From: Natronobeatus ordinarius
GTDB taxonomy: Archaea; Halobacteriota; Halobacteria; Halobacteriales; Natrialbaceae
Length of the DNA stretch: 64,000 nucleotides
Reading direction: 5' to 3'
Assembly (NCBI RefSeq): GCF_024362485.1
Contig: NZ_CP101456.1
Coordinates: 62,001 to 126,000, forward strand
Shown here: piece by piece, positions 11,796 through 17,931 of the stretch
Position numbering within the stretch: position 1 is the stretch's first letter
How the letters are laid out: each line of letters begins with the position of its first letter
Notes under the pieces: generated by a model
Database searches by the model: none
Told to the model about the DNA's origin: nothing
Seen by the model: only the letters and a program-made list of their open reading frames with translations
Position numbers and translations under genes: made by a program

Positions 11796-11917
11796 ATCCG
11801 GCGTTTTCGCTCCCGGAGGCAAGTAGCTACCGCTCGGTCGCGTGAGCGGCGGCTTCGCGGGTGGACGGAAGCTGAGGAACCGATGATACTTATTCCGTTC
11901 CGCCCTGGATCGTGTAT

Positions 11918-13099
11918 ATGGTCGGCGAGCAGCTGGTCGAACGACTTCCAGAAAACTGGAAGTGGGCCGTCACGACGCGGGCAGCGGTCGCCCTCGCGCT
12001 CCTGGTGGCGCTCCTCTCGGTCGCGACCGGGCTCATCAACATCGAACAGAGAGCCGCCGACTTCGGACCGTTCGCGCCGCACGTCCCGGCCGCCGTTCAG
12101 CAGGCGGTCGGCTTCACCGGCGTGCTGACGGGCTTTCTGATGGTCGCGAGCGCGTTCGCGTTGCGCCGCGGGCTGCGTGCCGGCTGGTACACCACGCTGA
12201 TCCTCATGCCGATCACGGCGATCCAGGGCGTGTTGCAGGGCAGTCCGTACTCGGTCCCTCTGGTCGTCCTCTCGCTCGCGTCGATTCCCACCCTCTTGCT
12301 CACCCGCAGACGGTTCGACCGCTCGCTCTCGCTCACGACGACGCAGCTGGCGGCGGGCGGGGCGCTCGTCGGCGTCCAGCTGTACGGCACCCTGGGTGCG
12401 TTCGCCCTCGCAGACCAGTTCGACGGGATCGACACCCCACTCGACGCCTTCTACTTCACGCTCATCACCTCGAGCACCGTCGGCTACGGCGACATCGGCC
12501 CCGAGACCGAACAGGCGAAGCTCTTTACGATGTCCGTCGTCGTCCTCGGCGTCGCCAGCTTCGGTATCGCCATCGGGGCGCTCGTCGGCCCGGCGATTCA
12601 GGCTCGCATCTCGAAGACCCTCGGAAAGATGACCGACTCAGAACTCGAACTCTTAGACGACCACGTCCTCGTGCTCGGCTACGGGGACCTGACCGAACCG
12701 ATCGTGACCGAACTCGACGACGCGAACGTCCCGTTCGTCGTCGTGACGAGCGACGAAACCGCAGCGAACGCCCTCTCGGATCGCGCGATCAAGGCACTCA
12801 CGGCCAACCCGAGCGACGAGGAGCCGCTCCGTCGCGCGAGGATCGAGCGTGCGAAAGCGGTCCTCGTCGCCACCGACCACGACGCCGAGGACGCCCTCGC
12901 CGTCCTCACCGCCCGGGAGCTCAACCCCGACGTCCGCATCGTCACCGCAGCGACGGACCGGCGCAACGTCCGCAAACTCGAGCGCGCCGGCGCGGACGAC
13001 GTGATCGGGCTGGCCGAACTCGGCGGCCACCTGCTCGTGCGCTCGGCGCTGGGGACCGACGAGTCGCCGGTGGTCGAGCGCCTGCTCGAGAGCGAGTGA
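11918..13099 (+). CDS. Potassium channel with NAD-binding RCK domain
   Basis: A 393-residue membrane protein. Hydrophobic segments span about 20-40, 64-82, 90-108 and 113-130. A two-helix pore module follows, with selectivity filter TVGYGD (187-192) and an inner helix (about 203-225). The C-terminal half is a TrkA-N/RCK Rossmann domain (about 236-355, beginning HVLVLGYGDLTEPI, glycine motif GYGDLTEP). Family members gate K+ flux in response to nucleotide or ion binding, important in salt-in osmoadaptation. The extra N-terminal helices make it longer than a simple two-TM channel. GTG at 11912 is an alternative start. Confidence 0.9.
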   Translation: MVGEQLVERLPENWKWAVTTRAAVALALLVALLSVATGLINIEQRAADFGPFAPHVPAAVQQAVGFTGVLTGFLMVASAFALRRGLRAGWYTTLILMPITAIQGVLQGSPYSVPLVVLSLASIPTLLLTRRRFDRSLSLTTTQLAAGGALVGVQLYGTLGAFALADQFDGIDTPLDAFYFTLITSSTVGYGDIGPETEQAKLFTMSVVVLGVASFGIAIGALVGPAIQARISKTLGKMTDSELELLDDHVLVLGYGDLTEPIVTELDDANVPFVVVTSDETAANALSDRAIKALTANPSDEEPLRRARIERAKAVLVATDHDAEDALAVLTARELNPDVRIVTAATDRRNVRKLERAGADDVIGLAELGGHLLVRSALGTDESPVVERLLESE

Positions 13100-13117: not shown

Positions 13118-13756
13118 TCAGGCTTCTGGCGCACCCTCGAGGATCGCGACGCCGCTCGAGGCCCCGATCCGTTCGGCGCCGGCGTCGATCATGGCCATCG
13201 CCTCCTGGTACGTGCCGATGCCGCCGCTGGCCTTGACGGGGAGGTACTCGCTCATAAGCTCGACGTCCTCGACGGTCGCGCCGCCAGCTGCGAATCCCGT
13301 CGAGGTCTTCACCATCGCGGCGTCGGCCGCGACGGCGACCTCACAGGCCCGTCGCTTCTCCGCGTCGGAAAGCAGCGCCGTCTCGAGGATCACCTTCACC
13401 GGGATCGGGACCGCGGCGACGAGTTCCTCGAGTTCGGCGGCGACGGCCTCGTACTCGCCCGCCTGCAGTCGGCCGACGTTGATGACGACGTCGAGTTCGT
13501 CCGCGCCGGCTTTCCACGCGAGGACGCCTTCCCGGCGTTTGACGTCGTGGTCGTGCTGGCCGTGGGGGAAGCCGACCACGGTCGCGAGGGTGACGTCGGG
13601 GGCGTACTCGGTCGCTTCCTCGGCGAAACAGGGCGGGACGCAGGCGTTCATGCCGTCTTCGGCGGCTTCCTCGAGGAGTCGTTCGACGTCCGCGATCGTC
13701 GTCTCCGGGCCGAGGACGGTGTGGTCGATCATCGGCGCGAGTTCGCGTCGGTTCAT
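13118..13756 (-). CDS. deoC: Deoxyribose-phosphate aldolase
   Basis: A 212-residue TIM-barrel class I aldolase that cleaves 2-deoxyribose 5-phosphate to acetaldehyde and glyceraldehyde 3-phosphate in deoxynucleoside breakdown. Visible active-site residues are Asp89 in ELDVVINVG, the Schiff-base Lys150 in MVKTSTGF and Lys175 in VKASGGIGT. Its length is typical of the family. It is divergent from the ribose-1,5-bisphosphate isomerase gene across a 97-bp gap, tying it to nucleoside catabolism. Confidence 0.95.
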
Positions 13757-13853
13757 ACGGGCCGGACTCGGCCGACGACCAAAAACCCGGCCGGTTTCGA
13801 CCGTTCGGAGCGCTGCCACGTCGTTTTTGGTCCGTCGCGACCAACGCCCGGGT

Positions 13854-14834
13854 ATGAGCGACCACCGGCCCGCCGTTGCCCCCGTCGTCGAGGAGACCGC
13901 TGAACAGATCGCCTCGATGGAGATCCGGGGCGCAGCGGCCATCGCCGACGCAGCGGCCGCGGCCCTCGCAGCGCAGGCCGAGCGCTCGGAGGCGACCACA
14001 CCCGAGGCGTTCCGCGGAGAGCTTCGCGCCGCCGCGAAGGCGCTCTACGAGACCCGGCCGACGGCCGTCAGCCTGCCGAACGCGCTCCGGTACGTCCTCG
14101 TCGGCGCCGAGGGCGAGACGGTCTCCGAACTTCGAGCGTCCACCGTAGCGCGCGCCGAACGGTTCCGCGCCGACCTCGAGGACGCCCAGGAGACGCTCGG
14201 TCGCGTCGGGGCGAACCGCTTGCGTGACGGCGACGTGGTGATGACCCACTGTCACTCGACGGACGCCCTCGCCTGCGTGAAGGCGGCGGTCGAGGAGGGA
14301 AAACGGATCGAGGCGATCGTCAAGGAGACTCGGCCGCGCAACCAGGGACACATCGCCGCGCGAGAGCTGCGCGAGTGGGACGTTCCCGTCACGCTGATCG
14401 TCGACAACGCCGCTCACCGCTACCTCGACGAGGTCGACCACGTCCTCGTCGGCGCGGACAGCATCGCCGCCGACGGCAGCGTGGTCAACAAAATCGGCAC
14501 GAGCGGGCTCGCGGTGAGCGCCCGCGAGCGCGGCGTCCCGATCGTCGTCGCCGCCCAGACGATCAAACTCCACCCGGACACGATGACCGGCCACACCGTC
14601 GAGATCGAGACCCGCGACGAGGCTGAAGTGCTCTCACCGGCCGACCGGCGCGAGCTCACCGGCGGCGACCTCGACGACGACGGACTCACCGTCGAGAACC
14701 CCGCCTTCGACGTCACGCCGCCGCGTCACGTCGACGCGATCGTCACCGAACACGGCCAGTTCCCGCCAGAGAGCATCGTGACGCTCATGCGCGAACTGTT
14801 CGGCGAGACGACGCGAGAGCCCTGGGATCGGTGA
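13854..14834 (+). CDS. Ribose 1,5-bisphosphate isomerase
   Basis: A 326-residue member of the eIF2B-related (e2b2) isomerase family that converts ribose 1,5-bisphosphate to ribulose 1,5-bisphosphate. [11 protein letters not shown] near the N-terminus is the substrate-phosphate region. Cys133 (MTHCHST) and Asp202 (LVGADSI) sit at the positions reported as catalytic in the Thermococcus enzyme. [11 protein letters not shown] is the conserved distal motif. Family alternatives are methylthioribose-1-P isomerase and translation factor eIF2B, but length and motifs favour R15P isomerase. The neighbours (deoC divergent, PfkB kinase and nucleoside phosphorylase downstream) support a nucleoside-to-pentose-bisphosphate route. 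Confidence 0.9.
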
Positions 14835-14941
14835 GTCGATCAGGAGCCAGGAATCGTGATCCAGCAACCGCCTACAATTATTCGACCACTCAATCGAAGA
14901 AAACCGGAAAGTGTTAGTTCCAGCTATGTCCCAGTCATAGC

Positions 14942-15763
14942 ATGGTCGTCCCGGAGGGATTCGTCGTTCCGCCGTGGTACCTCCTGGTACCGCTGGTGCT
15001 GGTGCTGGCTGGGATCGTGGCGCTCCTGTGGGCACTCGAGCCACCGGTGACCGACGCGACCGTCGTCGCGTTCGCGCCATGGATGATGTTCGGCTCGACG
15101 TTACACGTCCTTCACAAGCTCGATTCATACCCCTCGACGGTCGAACCGCTGTTCAGCGCCCCGAGTGTCTACCTGACGACGGCGGTCGTCGCGGGGTTCG
15201 TCTGGATCGTCGCGAGCTTCGTCTACGCTGCGGGGTTACAGCCGTCGATCGAGCGGGTCGTGGGCGTCGTCGGCACCGGCTTTTTCGCCGTCTTCGCGAT
15301 GTTCGTCCTCTTCACCGGCTGGGAACTCGGCACGCTCCAGCCGTTCTGGCCGGCGATCGCCATCGTCGTCACCGGAATCGTCACCGCGATCGCCTGGATC
15401 GCCCTGAGCCTCTGGTACACCGACGTCGCCGCCGTGACGGGAGTCACCGGCGCGTTCGTCGTCTTCTCCCAGGCGCTCGACGGCGTCTCGACCGCCATCG
15501 GCTACGACGTCCTCGGCGCCCACGAGGAGATCCCGCTCTCGCGGCTCGTCCTCGAGGCGGGAGCGGACCTCCCCACCTACGAGTACGTCGGCGCCGGCTG
15601 GCTGTTCGTCCTGGTGAAAGTCGCCCTCGCGCTCGTCGTCGTCGGCCTGTTCAAAGAGTACGTCCGCGAAGCGCCCCGTCAGGGACGGATCCTCCTCGCA
15701 CTGATCGCCGCCGTCGGACTCGGGCCCGGTACACACAACCTCCTCCTCTTTGCGGCTACGTGA
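14942..15763 (+). CDS. DUF63 family membrane protein
   Basis: A 273-residue integral membrane protein with about seven hydrophobic segments. It begins MVVPEGFVVPPWYLLVP. The segments MMFGSTLHVLHKLD and QALDGVSTAIGYDVLG are characteristic of DUF63, an archaea-specific membrane family of unknown function. It lies between the R15P isomerase and PfkB genes on the same strand, with a 107-bp leader containing an A/T-rich stretch (about 14875-14905) that may be its promoter. Confidence 0.85.
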   Translation: MVVPEGFVVPPWYLLVPLVLVLAGIVALLWALEPPVTDATVVAFAPWMMFGSTLHVLHKLDSYPSTVEPLFSAPSVYLTTAVVAGFVWIVASFVYAAGLQPSIERVVGVVGTGFFAVFAMFVLFTGWELGTLQPFWPAIAIVVTGIVTAIAWIALSLWYTDVAAVTGVTGAFVVFSQALDGVSTAIGYDVLGAHEEIPLSRLVLEAGADLPTYEYVGAGWLFVLVKVALALVVVGLFKEYVREAPRQGRILLALIAAVGLGPGTHNLLLFAAT

Positions 15764-15834
15764 GCAGCCGTCGAACGCGTCGGCTGCGATGAGCCGTCAG
15801 GGTTTTGTCACCGGCAGTCGTTCACCCAGTCCGA

Positions 15835-16701
15835 ATGGTCTCCGTGCTCACGGCCGGCCACGTCAACTGGGACGTGACCCTCCGCGTCGACAGGCTCCCC
15901 GAGCCCGACGGCGAGGCGTCGATCCGGTCCCAGCGTGCGTCCGGCGGCGGCAGTGCAGCGAACGTCGCAGCAGCCCTCTGCCGACTCGCGGTCGACGCCG
16001 CCCTGATCGGCAGCGTCGGCGACGACGAGAACGGGCTGCTCGCCCGTCGCGAGCTCGAGCAAGCGGGCGTCGACCTCGACGGCCTGCGCGTGGTCGAGGG
16101 TGAGACGGCGGTGAAGTACCTGCTCGTCGACGACGGTGGCGAGGTCTCCGTCCTCGGAACCGACGGCGTCAACGAGGCCGTCCGGCCCCAGCACGTCGAT
16201 CCCGACCGGGTTCGGGCGGTCGATCACGTCCACCTCACGAGCCAGCGGCCGGAGACCGCCGCCACCCTCGCCGAGGTCGCGAGCGAGGCCGGCGTTTCGG
16301 TCAGCTTCGACCCCGGACGCCGCCTCGCCGACCGCGACTATCGCGACACGGTCGCGGCTGCCGACGTGCTCTTCGCGACCGACCGCGAGGCCGAGACGCT
16401 CCTCGAGTCGGTCGCGGCCGACGTCGACGGCCACACTGTCGTCGTCAAGCACGGCGGCGACGGGGCGTCCGTCCGAACGCCGGAGGGCACGCACGTCCAC
16501 CCCGGGTTCGACGTCGAGGCGGTCGACACCGCGGGCGCAGGCGACGCCTTCGCCGCCGGCTTCATCGCCACCCGGCTCGCGGGCGGCGACCTCGAGCGGG
16601 CGCTCGAGTACGCCAACGCCTGCGGAGCGCTGGCCGCGAGCCGTGATGGCGCCCGAAGCGCACCGACGGCGTCAACCGTGGCGGCATTTCTCGAATCGTG
16701 A
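15835..16701 (+). CDS. PfkB/ribokinase-family carbohydrate kinase, candidate ribose-1-phosphate kinase
   Basis: A 288-residue PfkB-family kinase starting MVSVLTAGHVNWD. The N-terminal substrate signature ASGGGSAANVAAALCRLA (about 41-58) and the C-terminal nucleotide/anion-hole signature DTAGAGDAFAAGF with catalytic Asp (about 231-243) are intact. Family members phosphorylate ribose, adenosine, fructose 1-P and others. In halophilic archaea a PfkB enzyme makes ribose 1,5-bisphosphate from ribose 1-phosphate in the pentose bisphosphate pathway. Closeness to R15P isomerase and nucleoside phosphorylase suggests that role here, by inference. Confidence 0.85.
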   Translation: MVSVLTAGHVNWDVTLRVDRLPEPDGEASIRSQRASGGGSAANVAAALCRLAVDAALIGSVGDDENGLLARRELEQAGVDLDGLRVVEGETAVKYLLVDDGGEVSVLGTDGVNEAVRPQHVDPDRVRAVDHVHLTSQRPETAATLAEVASEAGVSVSFDPGRRLADRDYRDTVAAADVLFATDREAETLLESVAADVDGHTVVVKHGGDGASVRTPEGTHVHPGFDVEAVDTAGAGDAFAAGFIATRLAGGDLERALEYANACGALAASRDGARSAPTASTVAAFLES

Positions 16702-16790
16702 CGATAACCGACACCGATATGTATAAGCTCATGGTATGTGCTGGCCCAGCACTCGCATGAGCTCTCATCGGCTGATGTCTGACGATAGCT

Positions 16791-16797
16791 ATATTTA
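16791..16797 (+). promoter_or_regulatory. TATA-like element upstream of the HalOD1 gene
   Basis: The A/T run atattta stands alone in a G/C-rich context 53 bp before the ATG at 16850, which would place a transcript start about 30 nt upstream of the start codon. Between them lies a small inverted repeat (cgtcac / gtgacg, near 16824-16842). Confidence 0.4.
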
Positions 16798-16849
16798 TCG
16801 GGCCGTTGGTCACTGAAGCAGAACGTCACGTCACCGTGACGGTGAGAGC

Positions 16850-17158
16850 ATGAGTAGACAGGTTACAGGCAGGCCGAAGAACGGAAACGGGGGGCGCCCG
16901 GGACAGGTACGATACGATCGGGACGAGGGCGAACCGCCGAGCGTCGCCGTCGCGACGGCACTCGCACGCTACCGCAACGAGGACGTCGTCGAGGCGAGCA
17001 CGCGGCTGTACGACCACGTCGATCCCGAGGCCCTCGACACGCTCTTCGCCGACAGGTACGACGGCGGAGCGCGCTCGAGCGGTACGGTGCAGTTCACCGT
17101 CGACGGGGCGGCCGTCGTCGTCCGATCCGACAGCGTCCAGGTGTACCCGGGCGGCTGA
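16850..17158 (+). CDS. HalOD1 output-domain protein
   Basis: A 102-residue soluble protein. After a ~30-residue basic, Gly-rich leader, the segment SVAVATALARYRNEDVVEAS ... GTVQFTVDGAAVVVRSD matches the HalOD1 output domain, a haloarchaea-specific small domain often attached to receivers or standing alone next to signalling genes. Its biochemical action is not established. No partner kinase is adjacent. Confidence 0.8.
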   Translation: MSRQVTGRPKNGNGGRPGQVRYDRDEGEPPSVAVATALARYRNEDVVEASTRLYDHVDPEALDTLFADRYDGGARSSGTVQFTVDGAAVVVRSDSVQVYPGG

Positions 17159-17202
17159 TCTGGAGCGGGTCTTTTTTCTCATCACCCGCGAAACGCGACG
17201 GT

Positions 17203-17931
17203 ATGGCAACCCAGCCACACCTGCTGGTCGACGAGGGCGACGTCGCCGACCTCGCGCTCGTCCCCGGCGACCCCGGTCGCGTCGACCGCATCGCCGACCA
17301 CTGCGAGACAGCAGAGACGATCGCCGAAAACCGCGAGTACAAAGTCGTCAACGCCACGTACGGGGGCCGCGAGCTGACGATCTGCTCGACGGGAATCGGC
17401 TGTCCCTCCGCGGCGATCGCCGTCGAGGAGCTCGCCGCCGTCGGCGTCGAGACGTTCGTCCGCGTCGGCACCACCGGCGCCTTGCAGTCCGGCATCGAGA
17501 TCGGCGACATGGTCGTCGCCACCGGCGCCGCGAAAAACGAAGGAACCACGAAACGGTACGAGGCCGTCGAGTACCCCGCCGTCCCCGACTATCACGTGCT
17601 CTCGGCGCTGGTCGACGCCGCGGAAGGCAACGACGAAGACGTCCACGTCGGCCCGATCGCCAGCGACGACGCCTACTACGCCGAGACAGACGAGTACGTC
17701 GCCGACTGGGAGGCCGCCGGCCTGCTGTGCGTCGAGATGGAAGCCGCCGCGCTCTTCACCCTCGCTCGCCGGAAGGGGCTGCGCGCCGGTGCCATCTGCA
17801 CCGTCGACGGCAACCTCGTCGAGGGCACCCAGAAAGGCACCGACGTCGAGGACGACGAACTGCCCGCGAAGGCGAAAGACAACGTCGCCCGCGCCATCGA
17901 CATCGCCCTCGAGGCGTCGACCCAACTTTAG
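17203..17931 (+). CDS. Nucleoside phosphorylase (uridine/guanosine phosphorylase type)
   Basis: A 242-residue PNP/UDP-family enzyme that splits a nucleoside with phosphate into base and (deoxy)ribose 1-phosphate. Conserved features are GDPGRVDRI (phosphate loop, about 22-30), RVGTTGALQ (about 87-95) and VEMEAAALF (about 176-184), whose Glu binds the ribose. In halophilic archaea a member of this family acts as a guanosine phosphorylase feeding ribose 1-phosphate to the R1P kinase and R15P isomerase encoded nearby; whether this one prefers uridine or guanosine cannot be decided here. It overlaps the convergent HNH-like gene by 4 bp. Confidence 0.9.
   Translation: MATQPHLLVDEGDVADLALVPGDPGRVDRIADHCETAETIAENREYKVVNATYGGRELTICSTGIGCPSAAIAVEELAAVGVETFVRVGTTGALQSGIEIGDMVVATGAAKNEGTTKRYEAVEYPAVPDYHVLSALVDAAEGNDEDVHVGPIASDDAYYAETDEYVADWEAAGLLCVEMEAAALFTLARRKGLRAGAICTVDGNLVEGTQKGTDVEDDELPAKAKDNVARAIDIALEASTQL

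Follow-up and report, generated by a model that had tools for sequence, protein, structure and literature searches.

The DNA analysed here, referred to as the window, is a 64,000-nucleotide stretch from the haloarchaeon Natronobeatus ordinarius (assembly GCF_024362485.1, contig NZ_CP101456.1, positions 62,001 to 126,000), whose genome comprises 4.2 Mb in two contigs and is 99% complete. The window carries a cluster of genes for nucleoside and pentose bisphosphate metabolism, namely deoC, a ribose-1,5-bisphosphate isomerase, a PfkB kinase and a nucleoside phosphorylase, accompanied by genes for a membrane protein of the family DUF63 and a small HalOD1 protein. A sequence-only reading had connected these genes with the non-carboxylating pentose bisphosphate pathway. 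The cluster is real and well assigned, and this type of operon has already been published in the main text of Sato 2022 (PMC9700705). By its predicted enzymes, the genome holds the gene set of the carboxylating variant, and the DUF63 gene tends to accompany the deoC and phosphorylase genes rather than the isomerase.

Gene content of the cluster

Isomerase, DUF63, PfkB kinase, HalOD1 and nucleoside phosphorylase follow one another on the plus strand, separated by 107, 71, 148 and 44 bases, and deoC lies divergently on the minus strand. Every gene named in the earlier reading was recovered in an intact frame on the strand listed below. The outline of its coordinates also holds, except that the stop codon of deoC ends at position 13118, which had been taken as the start. 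As the start codons read from the sequence are ATG at 13854 for the isomerase and ATG at 13756 on the minus strand for deoC, the divergent gap spans 13757-13853. In window positions, the features are as follows.

13118..13756, minus strand: deoC, deoxyribose-phosphate aldolase (TIGR00126 201 bits, cut-off 117), with its ATG at 13756
13757..13853: intergenic region from which deoC and the isomerase gene diverge, with facing boxes caaaaa (13780-13785) and tttttg (13824-13829)
13854..14834, plus strand: ribose-1,5-bisphosphate isomerase with C133 and D202 (TIGR00511 457 bits, cut-off 314)
14905..14917, plus strand: promoter-like element CGGAAAGTGTTAG, an exact match here, starting 37 bases before the DUF63 gene
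14942..15763, plus strand: DUF63 membrane protein (PF01889 56 bits, cut-off 25), predicted to have eight long helices
15835..16701, plus strand: PfkB kinase (NF053626 466 bits, cut-off 330)
16850..17158, plus strand: small HalOD1 protein (PF18545 74 bits, cut-off 26)
17203..17931, plus strand: nucleoside phosphorylase of the operon-linked, Urdpase1-like kind (PF01048 158 bits; TIGR01718 217 bits, below its cut-off of 280)

Chance does not account for this arrangement: the identical order from divergent deoC through isomerase, DUF63, kinase and HalOD1 to the phosphorylase recurs in 34 of 80 named DUF63 loci, many of them closely related. The named loci that resemble it most at DUF63 belong for the most part to genera of the Natrialbaceae.

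The isomerase and the kinase both score above the cut-offs of curated NCBIfam equivalog models. In the isomerase, Cys133 and Asp202 (numbered from the ATG) align to the corresponding Cys and Asp of the solved ribose-1,5-bisphosphate isomerase 5yfj (303 bits), in agreement with the conservation reported earlier; we take these two residues to be the catalytic pair. The phosphorylase belongs to the PNP_UDP_1 proteins, and its best NCBIfam model is the uridine phosphorylase model TIGR01718; none of the 13 other listed NCBIfam models places it above its own cut-off. It adjoins the kinase and isomerase genes here and in relatives, as an operon-linked member of the uridine-phosphorylase-like family, and one paralogue elsewhere in the genome is 46% identical to it. 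Of the three enzymes that had been considered assignable, the isomerase and the predicted ribose-1-phosphate kinase are supported by curated models, and the putative guanosine phosphorylase is of the operon-linked kind.

Completion of the pathway in the genome

A search beyond the cluster revealed a type III RuBisCO (L094:2814-4064), an open frame of 416 amino acids that scores 629 bits against TIGR03326 (cut-off 497). It carries the motifs KPK, KDDE and SGG, which presumably have a functional role in RuBisCO, and its best match among PDB entries is 6hun (422 bits). A nucleoside monophosphate (NMP) phosphorylase is also encoded (L095:2897-4375; TIGR03327 618 bits, cut-off 535). The class II aldolase family PF00596, to which the ribulose-1-phosphate aldolase would belong, has no match in this one genome, and the same search found matches in 12 of 14 control genomes; the ribulose-1,5-bisphosphate (RuBP) phosphatase was not searched for. 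The upstream half of the pentose bisphosphate pathway proposed earlier, with isomerase, ribose-1-phosphate kinase and operon-linked phosphorylase, is hence retained, and its non-carboxylating downstream half gives way to a predicted carboxylating gene set: RuBisCO together with NMP phosphorylase, and no class II aldolase. On the 4.08-Mb contig, the cluster is found at 0.08 Mb and RuBisCO at 3.87 Mb, so that the two are not neighbours (about 0.28 Mb apart if the contig is circular).

The closest known systems are the haloarchaeal operons described in the main text of PMC9700705, which combine the same isomerase, ATP-dependent ribose-1-phosphate kinase and Urdpase1 in one cluster; of the eight genomes considered there, all have the kinase gene in the operon and six have the phosphorylase gene in it. 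Judging by the locus tags Htur_0567, 0569 and 0571, one further gene could fit between neighbouring members, as in the window cluster. The eight genomes of that paper possess the isomerase without RuBisCO and NMP phosphorylase, whereas the window genome has both. Its main text mentions neither deoC nor deoxyribose nor DUF63. Three haloarchaeal variants are distinguished there: two use RuBisCO, either together with NMP phosphorylase, the gene set of the window genome, or in its absence, and the third is non-carboxylating and runs through RuBP phosphatase and ribulose-1-phosphate aldolase. The carboxylating pathway of Thermococcus kodakarensis, as outlined in the same text, shares with the window genome the nucleoside phosphorylase, ribose-1-phosphate kinase, isomerase, NMP phosphorylase and type III RuBisCO. 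However, the window kinase scores with the ATP-dependent enzymes of haloarchaea (NF053626, 466 bits) and falls far short of the ADP-dependent model of Thermococcales (NF041134, 120 bits, cut-off 500).

RuBisCO and aldolase among Halobacteria

Within a sample of 174 Halobacteria genomes, matches above cut-off were obtained for the isomerase in 116, RuBisCO in 64 (two of them remnants), NMP phosphorylase in 30, class II aldolase in 87 and the kinase in 141. For the pathway aldolase the figure of 87 is a maximum, because PF00596 also catches FucA* paralogues (PMC9700705, main text). Among the 116 isomerase genomes, RuBisCO alone was found in 49, the aldolase alone in 53, both in 12 (the two remnants included) and neither in 2. 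RuBisCO and class II aldolase thus largely exclude each other among isomerase genomes (Fisher p 1.2e-18, a statistic that ignores relatedness). In three genomes (G058, G081 and G086), RuBisCO lies a few kb from the isomerase.

Trees were built for the family of the window genome, from 30 of its 34 isomerase genomes, with the RuBisCO remnants scored as absent (G025, G107) and one genome with both enzymes (G143) labelled RuBisCO. On the isomerase tree (n=30), the RuBisCO or aldolase label needs 6 changes, compared with a mean of 9.6 after shuffling, and well-supported branches force at least 3 of them; on the kinase tree (34 rows), at least 3 are forced for each label. The downstream half has therefore been exchanged more than once. 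Sato 2022 (PMC9700705, main text) describes the pathway variants as independent of phylogeny, and two Natrarchaeobius strains differ in their downstream half according to the text of PMC12343721.

Several genomes of the sample depart from the common patterns. Three members of the same family, G020 (L333:2405-3747), G046 (L334:2255-3636) and G160 (L335:2467-3842), encode isomerase, kinase and NMP phosphorylase, yet gave no RuBisCO match; in each, a HAD protein above the RuBP phosphatase cut-off (NF053830) adjoins the class II aldolase, and the aldolase of G020, the only one checked, passes NF053831. These represent a further combination, because the main text of Sato 2022 (PMC9700705) confines NMP phosphorylase homologues to species with Rubisco. 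The two remnants consist of the last 116 residues only in G025 (L331:3762-4106) and of pieces in two frames in G107 (L332:3522-3985); both genomes carry a class II aldolase, and their lineages look like they have lost RuBisCO. Additionally, RuBisCO is above the Pfam cut-off in G021, G106 and G173, where the isomerase is not above its own. The isomerase is above cut-off in G079, G140 and G145, which lack a kinase above cut-off, and G140 and G145 also have neither RuBisCO nor class II aldolase.

Genomic position of the DUF63 gene

The mere presence of DUF63 does not discriminate. All 174 genomes contain at least two matches, including those devoid of isomerase and kinase, with a best E-value of 9e-42 or lower for the window protein as query; the window type was thus recognised in every genome by best E-value (9e-42 or better, where the two paralogues of the window genome compared directly give 2e-17) and not by a tree. 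Position is more telling. Distances were taken from the best-match place in 150 of the 174 genomes, with a kinase list of 143 entries (two, G036 and G124, below cut-off). DUF63 is no more than 5 kb from the kinase in 84 of 125 listed pairs, always on the same strand (84/84), and in all 44 pairs of the window family, 10 of which have no isomerase. The isomerase is within 5 kb of DUF63 in 50 of 97. For the co-occurrence of DUF63 with these genes, a check suggested earlier, position is thus more informative than presence.

The neighbourhood was then examined in 97 DUF63 loci, in which neighbour clusters were linked by BLAST and one member of each was checked by Pfam. Since 57 of these loci had been chosen for nearness to the kinase or isomerase, the fairer figures come from the other 40, drawn from 65 loci near neither: divergent deoC is found within 4 kb in 31 of 40 and a same-strand phosphorylase in 24 of 40. 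Furthermore, deoC and/or the phosphorylase lies within 4 kb of DUF63 in 19 of 20 loci from genomes without isomerase and kinase. By our own estimate, chance closeness of two given genes would amount to about 0.2% in 3.5-Mb genomes, for loci that are related by descent and not independent. These positions argue against membership of DUF63 in the isomerase pathway, as deoC and phosphorylase stay near without the isomerase; the link suggested earlier holds, by position, for the deoC/phosphorylase locus and not for the isomerase. The picture is that of an older locus of deoC, DUF63 and phosphorylase that appears to have received isomerase and kinase as optional insertions.

The DUF63 context at the deoC/phosphorylase locus was not found described in the literature searched by the name DUF63, nor in the main text of PMC9700705; in the text of PMC9426492, DUF63 is named as a line of a gene list.

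Upstream elements

An element within 2 mismatches of CGGAAAGTGTTAG was detected 36-40 bases before the start of the DUF63 match in 57 of 72 distinct regions, many from close relatives. These were derived from 110 loci after leaving out those of identity below 56%, those with fewer than 90 bases upstream and duplicates. The element occurs in 44 of 53 regions with the isomerase upstream and in 13 of 19 without it, compared with 1 of 1440 regions in which single bases were shuffled. Most simply, the isomerase gene would have entered between deoC and a DUF63 gene that retained a putative promoter of its own; we infer insertion rather than loss of the isomerase. In this genome, the 15-base form of CGGAAAGTGTTAG is matched exactly once and with 2 mismatches twice; it therefore seems specific to the DUF63 gene, and a role as a regulon mark was rejected on that ground.

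The facing boxes caaaaa and tttttg stand 24-30 bases from the deoC and isomerase ATGs, and similar boxes, judged by eye, appear in many isomerase-bearing loci. A reading of them as an operator was dropped, since their positions are those where we would expect leaderless core promoters.

The DUF63 protein and its family

The AlphaFold2 model of the DUF63 protein has eight long helices, with a mean pLDDT of 94. Foldseek with this model returned no solved-structure match at E <= 0.001, and a profile search of PDB sequences returned none at E <= 10. Alignment with VIA-align gave middling Z scores of the size seen for common helical arrangements, the best being for a designed helical barrel (Z 6.7). 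The XPR1 phosphate exporter recurs in the list (Z 6.3 over 166 residues, root-mean-square deviation 6.5), and no function is drawn from it.

The window protein resembles the PF01889 family in its score and in D180, K226 and P262, which it shares with the other type; in an alignment of 10 DUF63 sequences, five of the other type, these residues are invariant and E195 is nearly so. It differs from that type as a Halobacteria paralogue, with 14-25% identity to the five other-type members and a different neighbourhood. The second DUF63 gene of the genome is 25% identical to the window protein and is flanked by an AsnC-type regulator, a GST and a PAS kinase instead of the window neighbours. The family is present in 140 of 148 genomes of a phylum-wide sample, with one match each in the matched genomes outside Halobacteria. 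In 20 loci from outside Halobacteria (L196-L215), DUF63 stands beside Fe-ADH_2 in 16, UPF0179 in 13 and SpoIIM in 13, as counted from BLAST-linked ORF clusters of which a single member was checked by Pfam; by our own reading, the Fe-ADH_2 neighbour is glycerol-1-phosphate dehydrogenase-like.

HalOD1 and other neighbours

The HalOD1 gene, preceded by an AT-rich, TATA-like stretch, occupies this place in 29 of 30 loci of the window family and in only 3 of 20 loci without kinase and isomerase, all of one other family. Among the named loci, it is also found in Halostella (L267) and in an unplaced Halobacteriales metagenome-assembled genome (L259); the query was 102 residues long, and diverged copies may be missed. 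HalOD1 looks like a lineage-limited neighbour. The protein was also considered as DdfA and rejected, at 48.5 bits against NF053557 (cut-off 70).

Other genes recur around DUF63. A K+ channel with a TrkA-N domain (11912-13099 in the window) lies within 7 kb in 65 of 97 loci, on varying sides and strands, and a MiaB-like gene (our own sequence reading) in 46 of 97. A protein with TM_HPP and Usp domains (e.g. L139) is within 7 kb in 35 of 97 loci, in 29 of them in the direction of DUF63, at a median of 3.1 kb downstream.

Proposed role and alternatives

The cluster is best explained as the upstream half of a carboxylating pentose bisphosphate pathway, with DUF63 as an older membrane partner of nucleoside phosphorolysis; we give this a probability of roughly 0.8. 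By analogy with characterised relatives, the phosphorylase would convert a ribonucleoside and phosphate into a base and ribose 1-phosphate. The PfkB kinase would phosphorylate ribose 1-phosphate with ATP to ribose 1,5-bisphosphate, and the isomerase would turn this into ribulose 1,5-bisphosphate. From this product, the type III RuBisCO found at another place on the contig would make 3-phosphoglycerate, and the distant NMP phosphorylase may feed ribose 1,5-bisphosphate in from nucleotides or drain it. Deoxyribose 5-phosphate would be handled by the product of the divergent deoC gene. DUF63 would have been a membrane partner of nucleoside phosphorolysis at this locus before isomerase and kinase were inserted. 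One possibility is that it transports nucleosides in or nucleobases out, which fits its context because those, together with phosphate, are common to ribo- and deoxyribonucleoside phosphorolysis. The fuller scenario is tentative and, taken as a whole, rather unlikely: a transporter dedicated to nucleoside phosphorolysis, duplicated from a near-universal protein, with isomerase and kinase inserted later and RuBisCO exchanged repeatedly with phosphatase and aldolase.

Some observations weigh against the proposed role. For DUF63, the support comes from gene position, upstream element and conservation, and no fold match adds to it. RuBisCO and NMP phosphorylase are both distant from the cluster in this genome, and the substrate of the phosphorylase rests on relatives, because its score is below every listed NCBIfam cut-off. 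Moreover, the mutual exclusion of RuBisCO and aldolase is not strict, as 12 isomerase genomes hold both, two of them only as RuBisCO remnants. Lastly, six loci (L168, L174, L176, L181, L182 and L188) have no other window gene near DUF63.

These six loci also speak for the most serious rival, in which DUF63 is a passenger whose place beside deoC and phosphorylase is an old gene order kept by descent, with no functional link. Other neighbours are likewise kept within 7 kb (the K+ channel in 65/97, the MiaB-like gene in 46/97), and DUF63, near-universal in the phylum (140/148), stands beside Fe-ADH_2 in 16 of 20 loci outside Halobacteria. However, the K+ channel changes side and strand, whereas DUF63 remains within 5 kb of the kinase in 84/125 pairs, on one strand in 84/84 and throughout the family (44/44), and the second DUF63 gene of the genome is without this neighbourhood. 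The chances of such a passenger are put slightly below even. The flow of carbon could also differ from that proposed. If nucleotide salvage were the main flow, ribose 1-phosphate would pass through ribose 1,5-bisphosphate to NMP by way of NMP phosphorylase, and RuBisCO would serve as an overflow. The genome does encode NMP phosphorylase, and the main text of Sato 2022 (PMC9700705) presents ribose 1,5-bisphosphate as a node joining nucleosides, NMPs and central metabolism; yet the isomerase is in the cluster, the RuBisCO frame is open, and the nucleoside-dependent growth of a laboratory-evolved Thermococcus strain is attributed to the RuBisCO route in the text of PMC12628685. Salvage as the main flow is hence improbable. 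Least credible, and very improbable indeed, is service in the non-carboxylating pathway through RuBP phosphatase and ribulose-1-phosphate aldolase. In relatives, that pathway does draw on the same upstream genes (PMC9700705, main text), and 53 of the 116 isomerase genomes have class II aldolase without RuBisCO, but this 99% complete genome has no class II aldolase match and does have an open type III RuBisCO frame.

Implications

The pathway version encoded by the N. ordinarius genome is corrected from non-carboxylating to carboxylating, on the strength of its predicted gene set. For the Halobacteria, a sampled count, taken over 116 isomerase genomes, is now available of how often RuBisCO or class II aldolase completes the shared set of upstream enzymes. 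In addition, the membrane family DUF63 gains a concrete context, which is the nucleoside phosphorolysis locus rather than the isomerase pathway.

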